Positions 6,064 through 62,827 of a stretch of 64,000 nt of DNA are shown here, piece by piece. The translations under genes were made by a program, and so were the position numbers. This DNA is from Nitrobacteraceae bacterium AZCC 1564 (lineage in GTDB: Bacteria; Pseudomonadota; Alphaproteobacteria; Rhizobiales; Xanthobacteraceae): the NCBI GenBank assembly GCA_036924835.1, contig JBAGRR010000001.1:1302001-1366000 (forward strand). The letters are read 5' to 3'. The notes below the pieces were generated by a model. The model ran no database searches. It was given only the letters and a program-made list of their open reading frames with translations, and was not told the DNA's origin. Every line of letters starts with the position of its first letter. The first letter of the stretch is position 1.

Positions 6064-6230
6064 CTAGTGTGGCGTCTCGCAATTGCCGACCTGTCTTGCA
6101 GATGGTCTCTTATCGGCAGTTGCGAGACAAAAGCCACACTAGCATTTTGATTTTGCTAGTGTCCTTTCGTCTCCGAATAACCGTGCGAGCGCGCCGCGAA
6201 TTAGTCGGTTATTCGGAGACGGGACACTAG
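6064..6230 (+). repeat. Composite palindromic element, family EF (intact)
   Basis: Hairpin E (6064-6142; arms GTCTCGCAATTGCCGA and complement) and hairpin F (6156-6230; arms GTCTCCGAATAACCG and complement) are each bounded by CTAG and joined by the linker cattttgattttg. This is the uninterrupted version of the element split by a BC unit at 40544-40874. It fills most of the gap between alaS and the glycine riboswitch. Confidence 0.9.
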
Positions 6231-6307
6231 GGCCGTTGATAGCTCAGTCAGCCGCGTTGACAGCCCCTCGAAACCGGTGTTCTTCTCCCCATGTATTCGA
6301 TACGTCG

Positions 6308-6479
6308 CGTCGGGAGAGACCGGTTTTGTGCCGGCGCCGAAGGAGCAACCGCCCCGGAAACTCTCAGGCAAAAGGACCGCGCGGCGAACTGAAATCTGGA
6401 AAGAGATGCGGCCGGACGGGTGTCCGGAGTGGCATCCGCCGACGGGATAATACTCTCAGGCGCAGCGACAGATGGGGCT
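6308..6479 (+). ncRNA. Tandem glycine riboswitch (gcvT leader)
   Basis: Two consecutive aptamers have the glycine riboswitch core. The first begins CGGGAGAGAC (6311) and contains GCCGAAGGAGCAACC and AACTCTCAGGCAAAAGGACCG; the second begins near GGAAAGAG (6398) and contains GCCGACGGGATAA and ACTCTCAGGCGCAGCGACAG. Glycine binding in this class usually switches the downstream cleavage operon on. It ends about 48 nt before the gcvT start, leaving room for an expression platform that includes the ribosome binding site. No clear terminator hairpin was seen, so control of translation is possible. Confidence 0.95.
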
Positions 6480-13435: not shown

Positions 13436-13724
13436 CTAGTGTCCCTTGATTCCGAAGTTCGCACAGGCTTGCGGCTTGCTCGGATGCGAACTTCGGAATC
13501 AAGGGACACTAGCAAGCCTATAATTTGAGTGCCGTTTGGATTTGAAATTCTTCATCACTCGGAACAACTTCAGATCCGCGGCGCTCGTGTGGTGGTTTAG
13601 AAGTTCGCCCGATTTTTCCTGCGAATCTTCCAGCGAACGTCCACATGAGAATCAGTGTCCTCGCGAATCCAAAGTCCACTACGGCGCACACTGCAATGGG
13701 CGGACGTAGGATTCGGGGCACTGG
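13436..13724. repeat. Cluster of decayed CTAG palindromic elements
   Basis: One intact hairpin at 13436-13512 (CTAGTGTCC ends, arms TTGATTCCGAAGTTCGCA) is followed by a BC-like linker (caagcctataattt), a degenerate C-like hairpin (about 13527-13583), and a degenerate inverted AD unit (13584-13724, D-like from CTCGTGTGGTGG and A-like ending GGCACTGG). Substitutions and small deletions disrupt the later arms, indicating old insertions. Confidence 0.65.
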
Positions 13725-18946: not shown

Positions 18947-19107
18947 CTAGTGCCCCGAATCCAAAGTTCGCCTTATCTGCAGCGCGCTCCGTAACGAACT
19001 TTGGATTCGAGAGGACACTAGTAAATCCATGATTTGAGTGTCCCGATTCCGAAGTCCGCAGGAAGGACTCGCTGGAAAAATCGGGCGAACTTTTGAATCA
19101 GCACACG
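18947..19107 (+). repeat. Composite palindromic element AD, second half decayed
   Basis: Hairpin A (18947-19021, arms GAATCCAAAGTTCG and complement) is intact. The AD linker taaatccatgatt follows, then a degenerate D/A-like hairpin with lost terminal CTAG. It lies just upstream of the acetyltransferase leader. Confidence 0.75.
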
Positions 19108-19310
19108 AGCGTCCATGGGCATCGGACACCTGCTGATTTTGTGCGGGCCGACCATCGTTAACAACGCGTCAAAATCAAGTGGCGCATTTAACCCAAATCC
19201 CAAATCCGATCTTGATGTTTCGTCCGTAGGCTCTGCCCCAAGACGCAAAAAAACAATCGCGAGGCTAAGCGCGGTCTCGTGCAACAGCGCTGTGGAATTG
19301 GGACAGGGAC

Positions 19311-22216: not shown

Positions 22217-22546
22217 CTAGTTCTGGATTTGACATTCGCTACCCACGTTGCAGCGAGTTCTGGAAGCGAATGTCAAATCCAGAACTCCACTAGAATCTTA
22301 TAGTTGCTCGTGTGGTGGTTCAGAAGTTCGCTTCATTGTCTCCGCGCGTCTCTCAAGCGAACTTCTGAACATGAACCACACGAGACTCATAGGTTTGCGA
22401 GTGTCCTTTCGAATCCGAAGTTCGCGATAGAGTGCGCTGCGTGTTGGGGCGAACTTCGGATTCGTGACACTCGTGATCCCTTGGATTCTAACATTTGCAA
22501 ACGCATCTGCTAAAACGGGATGCAAATATTGGAATCGGACCACTAG
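22217..22546 (-). repeat. BC element interrupted by an AD element
   Basis: Order on the forward strand: C hairpin (22217-22293), linker aatcttatagttg, inverted D hairpin (22307-22384), linker actcataggtttg, inverted A hairpin (22398-22473), then a B hairpin (22474-22546). The outer C and B are the two halves of an inverted BC unit like the one at 40618-40786. The AD unit (bounded by CTCG instead of CTAG) sits exactly where B should begin with CTAG. The right end lies 2 bases before the stop of the next gene. Confidence 0.85.
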
Positions 22547-30092: not shown

Positions 30093-30259
30093 CTAGTGTC
30101 CCGAATCGGAAGTTCGCCCCCTAATGCAGCACACCTCGTAGCGAACTTCGGATTCGAAAGGACACTAGCAACTCTATGATTCTAGTGTGGTTTAGGTTCA
30201 GAAGTTCGCTTAAAGGACTCGCCGAGAGAATGAAGCGAACTTCTGAACCACCACACTAG
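30093..30259 (+). repeat. Composite palindromic element, family AD (intact)
   Basis: A hairpin 30093-30168 (CTAGTGTCC ends), linker caactctatgatt, D hairpin 30182-30259 (arms GGTTCAGAAGTTCGC and complement, CTAGTGTGG ends). Same orientation as the copy at 33.6 kb. Confidence 0.92.
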
Positions 30260-33648: not shown

Positions 33649-33815
33649 CTAGTGTCCCGAATCCAAAGTTCGCCTCATCGTGCAGCGCGCTCCGTAGCGA
33701 ACTTTGGATTCGAGAGGACACTAGTAAATCCATGATTCTAGTGTGGTTCAGGTTCAGAAGTTTGCTGGAAGGACTCGCGGGAAAAATCAGGCGAACTTCT
33801 GGACCACCACACTAG
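33649..33815 (+). repeat. Composite palindromic element, family AD (intact)
   Basis: A hairpin 33649-33724, linker taaatccatgatt, D hairpin 33738-33815. It fills the gap between two convergent genes; its right CTAG ends 3 bases before the stop of the VOC gene. Confidence 0.92.
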
Positions 33816-35222: not shown

Positions 35223-35388
35223 CTAGCGTGGTGGTTCAGAAGTTCGCTCCATCTTTCCGCGCGTCCTTCCAGCGAACTTCTGAACCTGGACCACACCAGA
35301 ATCCATGTATTGCGAGTGTCCTTTCGAATCCAAAGTTCGCAACGGAGCACGCCGCATTGTGCGGCGAACTTTGGATTCGGGACACTAG
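35223..35388 (-). repeat. Composite palindromic element, family AD, inverted
   Basis: Inverted D (35223-35299), linker aatccatgtattg, inverted A (35313-35388). The loops match the reverse complements of the copies at 30.1 and 33.7 kb. The right CTAG forms the stop codon of the cupin gene on the reverse strand. Confidence 0.9.
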
Positions 35389-35896: not shown

Positions 35897-35973
35897 CGTA
35901 GTGGTCCGATTCTAATGTTCGCATCACGAATACGCGGCAAGCAGGATAGCGAACGTCAAATCCGCTCCACTAG
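35897..35973 (+). repeat. Single hairpin, B/C hybrid
   Basis: The left arm is B-type (GTGGTCCGATTCTAATGTTCGC), the loop and right arm are C-type (GCGAACGTCAAATCC, CTCCACTAG). B and C share TTCGCATC at the junction, as expected for a deletion between the two halves of a BC unit. The left end reads CGTA instead of CTAG. The right CTAG contains the stop codon of the GST gene. Confidence 0.75.
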
Positions 35974-37905: not shown

Positions 37906-40470
37906 TCATGACGAAATTGTCATGGTTTCCTTCACGGCCGCCACAAGTTGGCTCAACGTGAAGGGTTTCGGCAGGAAATTGAACTGCTGGTTCTCGGGCA
38001 AGCTTTTTTCAAATGCATCTTCCGCATAGCCAGAAACAAAGATGATCTTGAGATCCGGGTTTCGCTTGCGCATCTCGACCAGCAAGGTCGGCCCATCCAT
38101 TTCCGGCATCACGACGTCGGAGACGACGAGATCGATGGCGCCCTGCTCCTGGTCGATCAGCTCCATTGCTTCAAGTCCGTTCGCAGCTTCCATAACCGTG
38201 TAGCCACGCGAACGAAGACCGCGGGCGTTCAACGAACGCAAGCCGTCCTCGTCCTCGACAAGCAAGATGACGCCTTGTCCCGTAAGATCCGGCGCGCGCG
38301 GCTTGGCAGCAGGAGCCTCGGCTTCCGCGCCGTTTGTGACCGCAACCTCCTGCACTTTTTCTGCTTCAGGATAATGTCGCGGCAGGAAAATGCGGAACGT
38401 CGTTCCCTGATTGGCGACGGAATCGACATAAACGAATCCACCGGTCTGCTTGACGATTCCGTAAACTGTTGAAAGGCCGAGACCCGTCCCCTTGCCCACC
38501 TCCTTGGTCGAGAAGAACGGCTCGAAGATCTTGTCAAGGATATCGGCCGGAATGCCGGTGCCGGAATCGCTGACCTCAATTTGGACGTAATCCGCCGCAG
38601 GCATTCCTTTGTATTGCAAACGCTCGGCATCGCTTGCTGAGACGTTCGCCGTCCGGATCGTCAGCTTGCCGCCGTCCGGCATCGCGTCGCGAGCATTCAC
38701 CGCCAGATTGACGATGACCTGCTCGAATTGTGAGACGTCGACCTTCACCGGCCACAGATCGCGGCCGTGAACAAAATCGAGCTTCACCTTTTCGCCGATC
38801 AGCCGCTTCAGCAGCATGGTCAGATCCGACAGTGCATCGCCCATGTCGAGCACTTGCGGACGCAGTGTCTGACGGCGCGAGAACGCCAGCAGTTGCCGAA
38901 CCAGCGTCGCCGCGCGCGTCGCGTTCTGCTTGATCTGCATGATGTCCTGGAACGACGGATCGGTCGGCTTGTGTGCGTTCAGCAAGAAGTCGTTCGCCAT
39001 CATGATGGCGGATAGGACGTTGTTGAAGTCATGCGCGATGCCGCCGGCGAGTTGCCCCACCGCCTGCATCTTCTGCGACTGCGCGAAGTTCGCCTCCAGT
39101 GTCCGCTTCTCGGTTGTCTCCAGCAGGTAGACGATCGCGACCTCCGCATCGCGTGCATCCTGTTCAACCGAGGTGACGAAGAATTGGCCCCAGCGCTCCT
39201 TGGCGCTGTCCAGCATCGCTTCGACGGGCGGAATATCACCCTGACCGTCGGTCGCTTTATTGATGGCCACGACAAGCTCTCCGCGTTCGCGCTCGCTCAC
39301 AACCGCGAAGATGGACTTGTTGCCGGCACCGGATGACGAGAGGCTCTGCGTCAGCTTGGCGAAGCGGGCGTTGGCGCGCACGATATTGCCGGCCTTGTCA
39401 ACGGTCGCAATGGCCATCGGCGTATGGTCGAAGAAGCGCATGAAACGCACTTCAGCCACACGCTGTGGATCGCCATGATCGTCACGCGCCCGGTTGATGA
39501 CAAGCGTGCGCGAAGCACCGGGTGTGCCATCGGCTCCGAAAGCGAGCTTGTGATAAAGTCGCACTGGCATGGTCTTGCCGCTGCGCATCCGCAGATCAAT
39601 GTCGAAGACCTCTGTCTTGACCTCACCCGGCTCCGGCGTGATCGACGTCAGCAGGGACGCTCCATCACCCGACACGATATCGGCAATCTTCAGCCCGCCG
39701 GAACCGATCTCGGCCAAATCGTAATCCAGCCAGTTCGCCAACGTCGCATTGACGTAAACCAGCTCGCCCGCCGCATTCACCGAAAAGAAGCCGCAGGGCG
39801 CGTGGTCGAGATACTCGATGGCGTGCTGCAGTTCCTGAAAGACATCCTCCTGCCGCTCGCGGTCGCGGGTGATATCGGCGATCGACCAGACCGCGAATTT
39901 TGCTTCACGCTTGTCTGTTCCCAGCGGCCTCACCCGCATGCGCAGCCAGCGGCCGTGCGAACTATCGGCTCCCGCGACCCGGACTTCTTCCTGCTGCCGC
40001 TTGCCTTCGCGCGCTGCCTTGAGCAAACGAAACACAGCCTCGGAGACGTCCGGATTGCCGATGAAAACGCGTTCCACGGGCCGCACATCACTGGCGCCCG
40101 ATGCGCCCGTAAGCGCAAGATAAGTGGCGTTGGCATAGACCACGTGACCACGCGGGTCAGTCACCGCCAGACCATCGAACGCGTGATCAGCGATGGGACG
40201 CGTGATGGGATCCTCGGCATGGCGATCGGCGAAGCGGACGATGCCCGCAGCGAAAGCGAACAACGTAAAGAGCCCGACCATTGCCAGCAACGCCAGCAGG
40301 CCGAGAATATAGGGCTGGGCCTGCGAGCGGCCCAAGGTCATGAATGCGACCGCCGCCGCAACCACGGCCCCTGCGACCAGCAGTACGAGGAAGATGCTGC
40401 CGCTTCGCCGTGCCGGTTCAAGCACGGGAGCAAAAGAGGAACGCGGATCGTTGCCCGGAACGGTTGTCAT
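37906..40470 (-). CDS. cckA: Cell-cycle hybrid sensor histidine kinase CckA
   Basis: 854 residues. Two membrane helices near the N-terminus (about 22-43 and 55-79), two or three PAS domains (around 90-440), HisKA with phospho-His480 in GGIAHDFNN, HATPase_c with [10 protein letters not shown] and DSGTGI/GKGTGLG boxes, and a receiver domain with Asp785 in VVSDVVMPE. CckA phosphorylates ChpT and through it CtrA and CpdR, controlling division, chromosome replication and flagellar genes. ATG 40470 has GCAGGCAG upstream; an in-frame start 9 codons further is less likely. Its location next to the flagellar block is common in this family. Confidence 0.96.
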
Positions 40471-40543
40471 CGCATGCTGCCTGCGCGTATCCCGCAAAAG
40501 CGGTGACCAGTCTTACGTTCAGAATACGCGAAAATTGTCGGTT

Positions 40544-40874
40544 CTAGTGTGGCGTCTCGCAATTGCTGACCTCTCTTGCGGCTAGCCTCTTATCGGCAAT
40601 TGCGAGACAAAGCCACACTAGTGGAGCGGATTTGACATTCGCTACCAACCGGCCGCGAGTTAGTCAGGCGAATGTCAAATCCAAAACTCCACTAGAAACT
40701 TATATTTGGCTAGTGGTCCTTTGATTCTAACATTCGCAGGAGGTGCCTGCCGAAACGGGATGCGAATGTTAGACTCGGACCACTAGCATTTTGATTTTGC
40801 TAGTGTCCTTTCGTCTCCGAATAACCGTGCGAGCGCGCCGCAAATGGGTCGGTTGTTCGGAGACGGGACACTAG
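40544..40874 (+). repeat. EF element interrupted by an inverted BC element
   Basis: Order: E (40544-40621), inverted C (40618-40695, sharing the CTAG of E), linker aaacttatatttgg, inverted B (40710-40786), linker cattttgattttg, F (40800-40874). The E, linker and F sequences match the uninterrupted unit at 6064-6230 with only a few differences. The BC unit is bounded by CTAG on both sides, where the empty site has one CTAG. Confidence 0.93.
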
Positions 40875-41007
40875 GCATTTTCCTGCAACAAACTCATTTC
40901 TATCCCGCGGAAACATGCTCTGAATACGCCCTTCTCGAACCTGAGTGCCTGAATCGGGCATCAGGACGCAAGCGGCATCATGGACGTTCCCTCTGCCGTA
41001 CGCGACA

Positions 41008-42084
41008 TCACCAGCCAAGGCCGGAGACCTGACGCTTGAGGCGCATCACGTAGCCGATGACTTCCGCGACCGCGTGATAATGCTCCACCGGAATCTCGCT
41101 ATCGACTTCAACAGTGGCGTGCAGGGCGCGCGCCAACGGCACGTTCTCCACGATCGGTACGTCGTTCGCGGTGGCGATCTCCCTGATCTTGAGAGCGATT
41201 GCGTCTACGCCCTTGGCCACGCAAATCGGCGCCGGCATCCCGCGGTCGTATTTGAGCGCAACCGCGTAGTGGGTCGGGTTAGTGATGATCACGGAGGCCG
41301 TCGGCACCGCCGCCATCATGCGCTTCTTCGCGCGCGCAAAGCGGATCTGCTTGATGCGCCCCTTGATGTGCGGATCACCTTCGGATTGCTTATATTCTTC
41401 CTTGATTTCCTGCAGCGACATCTTCTGCCGCTCGAACCACTGCCGGTATTGGAACAGATAGTCCAGCGTCGCAACCACTGCGAGCATAGCGACGACCGTC
41501 GCCATCAGATGCACCGAGAGCGCCTTTGTTACATCCAGGATTGCCACTGGATCGAACCGGACCATCGCCTCGAAGCGATGGCGCTCAGGCCACAGCACCA
41601 TGACCATGACGATTCCCACGACGATGATCTTGAACAGGCCCTTGAGAAAGTTCGCGAGCGCCTGCTTGCCGAACATTCGCGCGGCGCCGGCCATCGGAGA
41701 GATCTTGCTGAATTTCGGCGACAGTGCTTCGGTCGAAAACACCAGCCGATGCTGAATCAGATTGCTGACAATGCCAGCAATGATCAGCAGTAGAAACGGA
41801 ACGCCGAGGGCGCTAATCAAGGCAAATTCGATGCTGTTGACGAGTGCAAGGAGGCCCGGCCCGTCAACGCGGATCTGATGAGCATTCATCATCAGGTTTC
41901 GCATCGGGGTCTCGATACCAACACCGATCGATCCCGAAAACGATGAGAGGAGCAACGTTGATCCGGCGATCACGAACCAGGTGTTGACTTCCTGACTTTT
42001 GGCAACGTCGCCACGTTCGAGCGCTTCGTCGAGGCGTTTTTGCGTCGGGTCTTCTGTTTTGGAGTCTTTATCCTCGTCGGCCAT
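41008..42084 (-). CDS. flhB: Flagellar export gate protein FlhB
   Basis: 358 residues. Charged N-terminus EDKDSKTEDPTQKRLDEALERGDVAKSQEV, four membrane helices, and a cytoplasmic domain with the self-cleaving NPTH site (ITNPTHYAVALKYDRG). FlhB switches export specificity from rod/hook to filament proteins. AAGGGCGG precedes the ATG. Last gene of flgB-flgC-fliE-fliQ-fliR-flhB. Confidence 0.97.
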   Translation of the reverse strand: MADEDKDSKTEDPTQKRLDEALERGDVAKSQEVNTWFVIAGSTLLLSSFSGSIGVGIETPMRNLMMNAHQIRVDGPGLLALVNSIEFALISALGVPFLLLIIAGIVSNLIQHRLVFSTEALSPKFSKISPMAGAARMFGKQALANFLKGLFKIIVVGIVMVMVLWPERHRFEAMVRFDPVAILDVTKALSVHLMATVVAMLAVVATLDYLFQYRQWFERQKMSLQEIKEEYKQSEGDPHIKGRIKQIRFARAKKRMMAAVPTASVIITNPTHYAVALKYDRGMPAPICVAKGVDAIALKIREIATANDVPIVENVPLARALHATVEVDSEIPVEHYHAVAEVIGYVMRLKRQVSGLGW

Positions 42085-46562: not shown

Positions 46563-49500
46563 TTACCGCCGGGCTTCGTTGACCTGTTTCAACCCTACGA
46601 TTTCAGGCAACGACCCGGTTGGAGTGGGATCCGCCTTGACTTCCGGCGGCAACTTAGCGCGGGCAACGGCATCCGGGTAACGCGTCTTCATCTCGCGCAG
46701 GAAACCATCGAGCGTATCGATTGCTGCTGCCATCTTGGCGATTCTGGCGAAATCCGAACTGTTTGCGGCAGCGGGCTTCGACGCAATATCGAAAATGGCG
46801 CGGTCGCTTCCTTCCATCTTTGCGCTGTATTTTTCGCGGAAGCGAGCAAGCCCAACCGCGTCTTCCGCAAGGGCGTAACCAATCGCCGCTCGGATGACGT
46901 CGCTCTTCTCGAGCGATGTCAGAGGCTGGAAGTCTCGCCAGCGATCGCCATAGAGCAATTCGATTTGCTCCGCGGATTCCCGCCAGCGGCGAGCCGCCCA
47001 GTAAATGTCCGATCGTAGCCGCACGGCTTCACGGCCACTGATGTTCGAGACAATGTCGAGCGCGAGGTCGTGCCGGCCGACATCACTCTGGGCACGTGCT
47101 TCGAGCAACAGCCGTTGTTGCCGCAATTCGCCGGCCAGATCGGCAATGCGGGTCGTGCGTAGCGCTGCAATTGCTCGTCCTGGCTTACGATTCATCAGGT
47201 AAACCATCGCCAGACGGGCAGCGACCTGTGCGCGCGCCGCGCCCTCGAGACGATGATCGATCTGATATTGAAGCAGTTCGCCGGCCTGATCGAGCAAATC
47301 GACAGCAACCAGGCGATCGGCGAGATGACGGATCAACTCATCACCACGCCGTCCGATCGGCGTGAGATCGCGATATTCGTAAAACATCGCCAGAGCCTCC
47401 ACTGGAGGCAGAGCGTCGCCTTTGGGGCTGTTGTAGAGCTGATCAAACAGAGCAGACGTTTGATCTTGCACCTTGCGGGAAATTTCCGAGTTCGGCTCCA
47501 ATTTGGTCGCGACCCGTCCGGCCGCGAATGCGTCGTTGTAGCGTTCCTTCACCGCGTAAAGCTGCGACAGCATTCCGAGATTCTTCACCTCGATCGAGTC
47601 ACCGCGCCAGGTCGTCGATGCGGTTTCCAGCTCACGAATGGCATCGTCGTCGTTGAGCATATTGCGTTTTTGACGAAGCGCGATGTTCAACAGAGTTGCT
47701 TCCGCGGCGGCCGGCCGGTTCGAGGAGTCGATAGCCGCCTGATAGGCCGACAGAGCATCCTTGTCATGGCCGAGGGCTTCAGCAAGCCGTCCCCGCAGAA
47801 GGGCAATCTCCCCCTCCTGCCCAGCCCCCGCCCCCAAAGTGGTGAGATCATTGCTGCGCAAACCGGCTGTGGGATAATCCTTGACCTCGAGCGCGGCACG
47901 AAACGCCCCGATCGTTACGATCCGTTGCAGATCAATCGGCAGCCCTGTAATCGCGAACTCGGCATTCTTGAATTTCTCTCGCGCCTCCACCCACTTGCCC
48001 TGCTCCGCGTAGGCCAGCCCCTTCCAAAGCTGGGAATCGGAATTTGCACCGATCGCGGGATTAGCGAGGTCCTTCAGAGCGAGTTCAGGATGGCCGGAAA
48101 GAGTAGTGGCCACGGCGCGAATGATGTACGCAGACGGATCGACCTCAGTTTCCTTGGTCTCGCCGAGAATAAGATCGAGAACGCCCTTGGCCTCGGGATA
48201 AAATCCGCGCGCAAGATAAAACCGGGCAAGATCGACGTGCGCCGACATGCGCTTGTCGCCCGTCGCCTGGGAAGCTGCGGCCATAAGGCTGTTACGCATC
48301 GACAAGAAATCCGCAGTCTGGTTTTCCTGCCACGTGCCTGCATCGAATATAGGCCGCACCGCTCCAATCGAGCGTTCCGGCATTGTCATCGCCGAAGACA
48401 GGGTCAACCCGCCAGGACGGCTCAGAACCAACTTGCTGGACGCGACATCTGCGGTGAGATCATCCGCATTTTGCTGGATGACGACTCCCTGCATTGATTC
48501 GAGCAGCGAAAATTCCACAAAATCCTGGCGCTTGACAAAGCCGCGCACCGGCAGGCCTGCCGTCATCACGGTCAGCGCGTCGCCCGCATCCGGGTCCTTG
48601 ATATGATGAAGCTGCCCTGGCTTGGCGAGCGCGACAGTCACATTTGCATGCTTGGGGTCCGCACTGTTACGAGCGGCAGTTAGTGGTTGCGAGGGCCGCT
48701 CAGCCTTGTCGGCCAGCATCAACGTCCATGATTTTTCATCGCCACTCAGCGTCACCAGTTGCGGACGGTTCAGCCGAATCCGGACCGCACGCCCTTTCGG
48801 AAGCTCCAGCGTACCGGCTGCGGCAATGAGCGATCCCCCCTGGCTTTGAATGGGCGTCGGATCGATTGCCTTGTCGGTATCAAAAACAAGCCAGATCGAA
48901 TCCGAACGTCGAAACGCGGCAGCAGGCGTCGGACCGGCAAAGCTGAATGTCACGCGCAAGTCATCACTGGTTCGCCTCACCTCCGGCACCAGCTTCGGGC
49001 CTAAGTTGGCAGCCGCCGGCATCTCGGCTTGGGCCGCAGGCTTCGCTTGCTGAGAGGCGGACGACGGCTCTGCCGCTGGCAGAGCCGCTGAAGGTGGAAC
49101 CACGATCTTTTCCGCAGCTTTTGGCGCGGGCGCAGACCTCTCCGCAACCTTGGCTTCGGGCCTCGTCTCGGACTTGTCTGACGCAGCGTCCTGCTTGGCC
49201 TCGACGTTGGTTGCCGGCGCCTTGACCTCGGATGCCTTCACATCCGACGGCTTCACTTCCGAGACCTTCGTTTCGGGCGGAGCGATCTCGGGCTTTTTCT
49301 CAAGCGATGCCTCGCGTGCGATTTGCTCCGATGTGGGCGGAACGATCGCACTCGCCTTGTTTTGCGCAGGCTTTTCGCCCGACGGAGCAGCAGGAGTGTT
49401 CGGCAATTGCGAGCGCGGACTTTGCCCTGGAGCCTTTGCTTCCTCGAAGCCTATGTCGACGATATAGCTCTTCTCTTCGCGGAATGCACGAACGTCCACT

Positions 49501-53664: not shown

Positions 53665-53767
53665 TTACTGGATGGCGAACCGGCGGCTTGGGAGAGCCTC
53701 TCCGGTTCACACGATCCGCGTCATGCCTTGGGAGAGGCCGGCGCGGTTCACCAGGGGAGACAGATCG

Positions 53768-54535
53768 ATGGAGAATACCCTCCTCGTCGCGTTGTCGCGA
53801 CAGGTGGCGCTTGAGCGTCAAATGGACGTAGTCGCGAACAATGTCGCGAACGTCAACACGAACGGCTTCAAGGCCGAAAAGACGCTGTTCGAGGAATATC
53901 TGACCTCGGGCGCGCATGAGGACAATTTCGCTCTCGCCGACCGGCGCGTCAGCTTCGTGCAGGATCGCGCGACGTATCATGATTTCATGCAAGGACCGTC
54001 CGAGAGGACCAGCAATCCCCTCGACGTGTCGATCGATGGCAAAGGCTTCTTTGCCGTTCAGACCCCTGGCGGCGAACGCTACACCCGCGACGGCTCCTTC
54101 CAGATCAACTCACAGGGGCAGCTCGTCACCGCCGGCGGAAACCTCGTTCTCGGCACCAACGGGCCGATCGTCTTCCAGCCGACCGATAAAGACATCGTCA
54201 TCACCGCCGACGGTACCGTGACCGTTAAAGAAGGCATCGTGACCCAGTTCGATTCCATCCGCGGCAAGCTGAGGATGGTGAAATTCGACAATCCACTGAG
54301 ACTGCAAAAGGAAGGCTCAAACCTCTTTTCGGCTCCCGCCGGAACGACGGCCCAGCCCGATATCGCCTCACGAGTCAATCAAGGCTTCATCGAGAAATCT
54401 AACGTCAATGCGGTCGCCGAAATGAGCCGCCTGATGATGGTCTCCCGGACCTACGAAAAGATCTCGGCGCTGATGCAACAGCAAAGCGACCTTCGCAAGA
54501 ATGCAATCCAATCACTCGCCGACGTACCGGCTTGA
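53768..54535 (+). CDS. flgF: Flagellar basal-body rod protein FlgF
   Basis: 255 residues. Start MENTLLVALSRQVALERQMDVVANNVANVNTNGFKAEK, a central beta region (FFAVQTPGGERYTRDGSFQINSQGQLVTAGG), and a C-terminal rod helix (FIEKSNVNAVAEMSRLMMVSRTYEKISALMQQQSDLRKNAI). Proximal rod. ATG 53768 has GGGGAGA. Under a sigma-54 type promoter; first of flgF-flgG-flgA-flgH. Confidence 0.96.
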   Translation: MENTLLVALSRQVALERQMDVVANNVANVNTNGFKAEKTLFEEYLTSGAHEDNFALADRRVSFVQDRATYHDFMQGPSERTSNPLDVSIDGKGFFAVQTPGGERYTRDGSFQINSQGQLVTAGGNLVLGTNGPIVFQPTDKDIVITADGTVTVKEGIVTQFDSIRGKLRMVKFDNPLRLQKEGSNLFSAPAGTTAQPDIASRVNQGFIEKSNVNAVAEMSRLMMVSRTYEKISALMQQQSDLRKNAIQSLADVPA

Positions 54536-62753: not shown

Positions 62754-62827
62754 GAGTGGAGCAGATTTGACGTTCGCACCCTGCTTGCCGCGACGTTATA
62801 ATGCGAACGTTCAAATCGGACCACTAG
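62754..62827 (-). repeat. Single hairpin, B/C hybrid, inverted
   Basis: The left arm is C-type (GAGTGGAGCAGATTTGACGTTCGC) and the right end is B-type (AATCGGACCACTAG). The loop is the reverse complement of the C loop. It matches, inverted, the hybrid at 35897-35973. Confidence 0.7.

Follow-up and report, generated by a model that had tools for sequence, protein, structure and literature searches.

A wider question is how palindromes of the REP kind can spread when no transposase is recognisable; the CGTC REPs are the published case. These mostly alphaproteobacterial repeats were described without a known transposase, and both they and the GTAG REPs are tagged palindromes that often form heterodimers (Di Nocera et al. 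2013, PMC3733652). The palindromes reported there are 20-40 bp long, have at one end a GTAG or CGTC motif that stays unpaired, and are separated by spacers of 20-100 bp in most dimers. It has also been reported that REPINs are inverted doublets in high copy, and they were proposed to move as a doublet (PMC3116915). The Br-REP1 and Br-REP2 elements of Bradyrhizobium are palindromic intergenic repeats of related bacteria (PMC5082802). Among insertion sequences, IS481 reportedly inserts at NCTAGN and duplicates this target (PMC3053399, PMC2516522).

The window analysed here is a stretch of 64,000 nt (G000:C1:1302001-1366000) of the source genome G000, which has 5,994,409 bases. It contains a composite of palindromes that resembles the GTAG and CGTC REPs in being palindromic and often heterodimeric, and differs from them in hairpin size, in the position of the terminal motif and in the spacer. 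The consensus sequences printed for Br-REP1 and Br-REP2 look unrelated to it and are much shorter. Among the open-licence articles listed in literature searches, no description of this element was found. The best explanation as a whole, to which we give a probability of roughly 0.7, is that a mobile two-hairpin element was inserted whole into another one.

The composite and its uninterrupted counterpart

At 40544-40874 a 169-nt two-hairpin unit, C-linker-B, is nested in an E-linker-F unit, its insertion point coinciding with the inner CTAG of E, and an E-F unit that lacks the insert is present in the same window. The parts are as follows.

40544-40621, + strand, hairpin E, of class I with a TGTGGC foot; it forms the left half of the host E-F unit
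40618-40786, + strand, inserted unit C-linker-B, 169 nt, CTAG at both ends; similar units stand alone at many other loci
40618-40695, + strand, hairpin C, class I, TGGAGC foot; CTAG at 40618-40621 is common to C and E
40696-40709, + strand, linker of the inserted C-B unit, AAACTTATATTTGG
40710-40786, + strand, hairpin B, class II, TGGTCC foot
40787-40799, + strand, linker of the host E-F unit, CATTTTGATTTTG
40800-40874, + strand, hairpin F, of class II with a TGTCCT foot; it forms the right half of the host E-F unit
6064-6230, + strand, uninterrupted E-linker-F unit, the empty counterpart (E 6064-6142, linker 6143-6155, F 6156-6230)

The 13-nt linker cattttgattttg at 40787-40799 is the same as that at 6143-6155, nothing lies between E, linker and F at 6064-6230, and the two E-F copies are 90% identical in E and 95% in F. 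A sequence-only reading of the window had proposed the order E, inverted C, linker, inverted B, linker, F with an empty E-F copy; coordinates and the shared 13-nt linker confirm both, and its observation that the composite holds no transposase is also borne out. The four hairpins have folding energies of -38 to -45 kcal/mol, and the three Rfam matches at 40400-41000 are weak, all being below the gathering score. The composite lies between a gene for a PAS-histidine-kinase-receiver protein (37906-40497, minus strand) and an flhB-type gene (41008-42084, minus strand, Bac_export_2).

A second E[C-B]F composite was found at G000:C1:2831036-2831367, with 91% identity over 331 bp. The C-B parts of the two composites are 93.5% identical, and the closest C-B units elsewhere reach at best 92.9% to the window copy and 95.3% to the second copy. 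Since the two C-B parts are about as close to each other as to C-B units elsewhere, independent nesting and joint movement as one block cannot be told apart by these identities.

Size and anatomy of the family

In the whole G000 genome the pattern CTAGTGN{50,74}CACTAG was matched 737 times, compared with 35 matches for the reversed control pattern; given these counts and the other nested composites, the hairpins are not a product of chance. The same pattern was matched 84 times (control 28) in the congener G013 and 89 times (control 36) in G041. Within an unselected 800 kb of G000 (500001-1300000), 106 repeat loci cover 18,023 bases, or 2.25%. Locus lengths were taken from a 944-kb set with 139 loci, which consists of this 800 kb, the window and four stretches chosen for holding pattern matches. 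The lengths fall into groups that match one, two and three units, with 83 loci of 160-175 bp, 16 of 300-340 bp and 3 of about 500 bp. A further 15 loci measure 70-85 bp, nine of which read as chimeras in which the outer halves of both hairpins of a unit are joined, and the other 22 lie between or below these sizes.

The unit consists of a class I hairpin, a 13-nt linker and a class II hairpin, with CTAG at the four feet. Spacings below 40 between consecutive exact hairpins were 13 in 49 cases, 12 in 12, -4 in 6 and other values in 5, and the linker was 13 nt in 61 of 81 doublets. Its consensus in I-to-II orientation is AATCWTANATTTG, with 76% A+T (50 linkers). Class I feet are TGGAG, TGTGG, TGCCG and similar, and class II feet are TGTCC, TGGTCC and similar; a class I hairpin is joined to a class II hairpin in 63 of the 81 doublets, which were detected without using the feet, with misregistered doublets among the rest. 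The hairpins carry unpaired bases on their linker side, frequently AAA or TTT. At stem pairs 7, 8 and 9 several pair types are in use, yet 94-97% of 177 hairpins have a Watson-Crick pair there, which indicates that pairing and not sequence is kept. The two feet of a hairpin covary as well: feet other than CTAG that are still complementary, mostly CTCG with CGAG, occur in 7 of 148 hairpins (seven misregistered doublets of the 81 being dropped), compared with a shuffle mean of 0.53; none of 20,000 shuffles reached 7. The units also avoid long open frames: once excised, 57 of 106 lie within a stop-free stretch of at least 200 codons, compared with 89% of random points (loci below 155 bp were left out).

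This anatomy bears on the idea that the units are REPINs moved by a RAYT, a Y1 HUH transposase. As in REPINs, the unit is an inverted heterodimer of bulged hairpins that is mostly outside long open frames, with hundreds of copies and a tetranucleotide at the feet, and the two inversely oriented hairpins per unit that define a REPIN are seen in the 63 doublets above. The contrast once drawn between this locus and REP or BIME repeats, as single or tandem hairpins, was too strong, because REPINs are themselves described as doublets (PMC3116915). Unlike in REPINs, however, the hairpins are 75-79 nt long and joined by a 13-nt linker, CTAG is paired at both feet of both hairpins where a REPIN has GTAG at one end and unpaired, and the units nest at their feet. 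Neither an unpaired GTAG-type tag nor a cognate Y1 transposase was found in G000. A RAYT in the genome had been put forward as something to look for; PF01797 was detected in 2 of 22 unit-bearing genomes (G019 and G020) and was not found in the other 20, G000 among them, and the nine Y1 loci examined contained no CTAG-bounded hairpin. A RAYT was thus rejected as the mover for most carriers, and we regard a REPIN moved by a RAYT as very unlikely.

Distribution in other genomes

Exact copies of the 25-mer with which C begins are present in at least 120 stretches of public genomes, including those of Nitrobacter vulgaris, Afipia, Phyllobacterium, Bradyrhizobium and Rhodoplanes, and also in MAGs labelled Rhodospirillaceae and Marinimicrobia, labels which may be wrong. 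It was found in 3 viral contigs, and part of the composite is matched by 5 plasmid records. The two-hairpin unit is a conserved block in many genomes. At least one pattern match was present in 31 of 150 genomes of the order. Since CTAG is rare, pattern counts outside the genus do not stand out from the reversed control (G118, 43 and 19; G058, 20 and 19; G069, 11 and 20). No exact hairpin was counted in G152, which belongs to the same genus as G118. The case outside the genus is instead made by the listed sequences, in which paired hairpins of the same size with other stems are seen. A 13-nt linker was found in 36 of the 44 linkers listed from eight genomes of other families, in most of which control counts are equal or higher. 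The same architecture is seen in several families of the order, and with 2.25% of 800 kb occupied, the units matter for annotation and for intergenic regulation.

Filled and empty sites

Both flanks of the intergenic gap of the composite were recovered in 25 relatives. Three of them (G013, G041 and G014) carry a C-B unit alone, at another point of the gap than the composite, so the composite and the relatives' C-B unit are separate insertions. A short remnant stands at the C-B site in G043 (L032), and a C-hairpin fragment is found elsewhere in the gap in G044. Empty words at this C-B site include CCTGA (G018), CCTAA (G015) and CCCGA (G019 and G044).

Including this one, 21 filled/empty loci were scored among G013, G041 and G018, with flanks mostly 90-99% identical. 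L224, L229 and L231 (unscorable), L225 (no clear flank), L248 (deletion) and ten further rows were excluded. The alignments show units that are complete in some species and missing from relatives at precisely the same site. The proposal that the C-B unit moves as a block is supported to this extent: it occurs as a block and is gained or lost intact.

The empty word was 4 nt at 13 loci (CCCG, GTAA, TTAG, GCTT, CGCG, CCGG, TCAG twice, CTAG, TAAG, TCGG, CGGA and CTGA), 5 nt at 3 (CCAAG and CCTGA twice), 2-3 nt at 4 (CAG three times and AAG) and 0 at 1 (L228). It was CTAG at one of the 21 loci (L221), and base changes adjoin the insertion at several. The filled sites have CTAG at both ends, partly by selection, as the units compared were chosen for exact CTAG outer ends; this selection gives no explanation for the empty sites that are not CTAG. 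The word can also differ between genomes at one locus. For example, L219 reads CTAG in G015, TCAG in G013 and G020, and TTAG in G043 and G014. CTAG as the sole exact target was ruled out by these words. The words nevertheless resemble CTAG, with a mean of 2.06 of 4 matches compared with 1.00 in flanks (17 loci; 0 of 20,000 draws), although P was only 0.034 when three registers could be chosen freely. This statistic omits L220, the first unit of L240, L245 and L251 (2-3-nt words), shortens 5-nt words to 4 nt and takes L228 as CTCG even though its empty site has no extra in-register bases.

The sequence-only reading had proposed that CTAG is targeted and left duplicated, and that orthologous empty sites would hold a single CTAG. 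Targeting holds in so far as the CTAG feet of other units are favoured, and empty sites do exist; duplication of a targeted CTAG is not supported, since at ordinary chromosomal sites a single CTAG is the exception, and in place of a CTAG to be duplicated there is mostly a CTAG-like word of 3-5 nt such as CCCG, TAAG, CCTGA or TTAG.

These sites also bear on another possibility, that the unit is a MITE of a DDE transposase targeting CTAG (IS481-, IS5- or IS630-like) and that CTAG is an ordinary target site duplication. The element proper would then begin with TG and end with CA, adjoining CTAG. The unit is like a MITE in being short, gene-free and present in many copies with inverted ends; it is like the IS481 family in its TG-type ends and CTAG-centred target, and CTAG is the site of most nested insertions. 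Furthermore, an IS481-type copy in G016 (L333 1370-2420) appears to be flanked by CTAG, and its TGTGG ends resemble class I feet. However, where IS481 is reported to duplicate its target, no target-derived duplication is seen here, the empty word being other than CTAG in 20 of the 21 loci for filled units chosen as CTAG-ended, and each half of the unit is a full hairpin. A parental insertion sequence was not found in the 944 kb of G000 that was read, where the sole repeats of at least 500 bp are two diverged gene pairs; G000:C1:500001-1300000 is likewise limited to two such pairs at this length, yet hairpin-pair repeats make up its 2.25%. For IS481, G000 has a single weak profile match (E 7.6e-6, below the cut-off), and among 29 congeneric genomes some match was found in 27 and the cut-off was exceeded only in G016, which holds few units. 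IS481 was rejected as the present mover of G000. We consider a MITE of this kind unlikely. Genes near the units were also compared all against all (3,556 open frames at 120 loci from 40 accession prefixes); no transposase was found in the 25 widest families listed, which, read from their sequences alone, look like ABC-transporter ATPases and periplasmic binding proteins.

Gains and losses

For the gain/loss comparison five further genomes were added (G043, G015, G014, G001 and G020); 30 outgroup loci were aligned and seven further outgroup matches were judged by flank spacing. About five loci, namely 177360, L222, L219, L214 and the window-orthologous locus, are best read as gains. At 177360 only G041 is filled, and the empty word is CCCG in G013, G018, G020 and G015 and CGCG in G001. 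L222 is filled in G041 and G013 and reads TAAG in G018, G020 and G001, and at L219 and L214 only G041 is filled among the genomes aligned.

Other loci are patchy. At locus 160574 the unit is present in G041 and, judged by flank spacing, also in G015, with CCAAG in both G013 and G020; L237 is filled in G013 and G043, with CCTGA common to G020, G014 and G001. By spacing, G020 is also filled at L217 and L246, and G018 and G043 at 293528 and L220. L215 and L220 are filled in G041 and G018 and not in G013, L222 and L247 in G041 and G013 and not in G018, and seven further loci are filled in every genome compared. To account for this patchy presence, loss of units, recombination or more than one insertion at the same site must have taken place as well. 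Plain losses are seen in G041, where the unit of L248 and part of its flank are absent, and in G043, which has a remnant at L217. Deletion products are also represented by an internally deleted unit at L370 (G043) and, at L271 (G041), by a deletion extending into the flank.

It could be supposed that no transposition took place, the composites having arisen by recombination or gene conversion between hairpins and the presence/absence pattern by loss from an ancestral state. The patchy loci would suit this, as would the plain losses at L248 in G041 and at L217 and the window-orthologous site in G043. It does not agree with several empty outgroups having one common word at one site, with two-unit composites being longer by one unit's length, or with units of different stems being nested in one another, and we find it very unlikely.

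Nesting of units

Copies nest in one another at CTAG feet. Counted by eye in 24 loci, a unit was inserted at a linker-side foot in 16 cases and in a hairpin loop in 1, and units were joined end to end at the outer foot in 5; 4 of the 24 loci, with a missing or chimeric partner, were left unclassified. A triple nest, B-[F-[H-G]E]C, is found at L209:7711-8207. In the loop insertion (L211:9769-10264), the K-hairpin loop that reads GAGGACTCGCCGC in two other copies has become GAGGA CTAG...CTAG CCGC: the insertion is at CTCG, the usual loop word of the family, and the ends are now CTAG...CTAG. In an Xanthobacteraceae MAG, two C-B units stand in direct tandem joined at a foot (L136 70-560).

Where the shared foot is informative, not being CTAG, it pairs with the other foot of the insert and not with that of the host in 5 of 5 clear cases (own500 145680, 174720 and 614155; L208 251; window 22219); own500 4713 agrees, its host being incomplete. 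With a target site duplication, the word of the target would be expected at either end. The ends observed are CTAG, the empty sites mostly are not, and in nests the foot goes with the insert; this is most simply read as the tetranucleotide belonging to the element, with a CTAG-like target word of about 4 nt being replaced on insertion, and the reading is well supported. An alternative is that the target is duplicated and then corrected, with the hairpin as template, to the complement of the inner foot; an uncorrected intermediate, with equal non-CTAG outer words and CTAG inner feet, was not found among the 40 non-perfect doublets listed.

Proposed mechanism

Taking the replacement of the target word as the preferred reading, the unit would be a non-autonomous mobile element made of a class I hairpin, a 13-nt AT-rich linker, a class II hairpin and four CTAG feet. 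A putative enzyme acting in trans would recognise the bulged hairpins with their paired feet, probably in single-stranded form by analogy with REP and IS200/IS605 ends, and would cut and join the strands; as the enzyme is putative, all these chemical steps are proposals. CTAG-like words might be chosen through their resemblance to the feet, and existing units, which offer perfect CTAG words, would then give rise to nests. Later deletion between short repeats may produce chimeric single hairpins or remove units. More specifically, and at somewhat less than even odds, the units may represent a class of mobile DNA, widespread in Alphaproteobacteria, that is moved by a dedicated and undescribed enzyme; in it a paired-foot double hairpin matches its CTAG feet base by base to a CTAG-like word and substitutes its own word, so that units accumulate like Russian dolls.

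The event is legible in the sequence itself, through filled and empty sites, a unit of fixed make-up, a target word and a substitution where a duplication might be expected. This signature is a concrete guide for seeking the enzyme.

Other units in the window

The remaining units of the window are as follows.

2118-2286, + strand, B-linker-C unit, opposite orientation
13436-13722, + strand, two units joined end to end at the outer foot: H-G, then a degenerate A-D
18947-19111, + strand, D-A unit, second hairpin degenerate
22217-22546, + strand, second nested composite of the window: an A-D unit with CTCG/CGAG feet inside a C-B unit
30093-30259, + strand, D-A unit
33649-33815, + strand, D-A unit
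35223-35388, + strand, A-D unit, degenerate
35899-35973, + strand, chimeric single hairpin that combines outer halves of B and C and probably arose by deletion
62755-62827, + strand, chimeric single hairpin from the outer halves of C and B

In the unit at 22305-22474 and in that at G000:C1:547927-548092 (own500 47927-48092), the four feet have changed together to CTCG/CGAG/CGAG/CTCG, and these two units belong to two different families. At the gathering score no Rfam match fell in any unit, and the two matches of the window both lie outside units. One is a glycine riboswitch (RF00504) at 6300-6389, which lies downstream of the empty E-F unit (6064-6230) at a distance of about 70 bases, and the other is a flg-Rhizobiales RNA (RF01736) at 53676-53813, with 109 bits.
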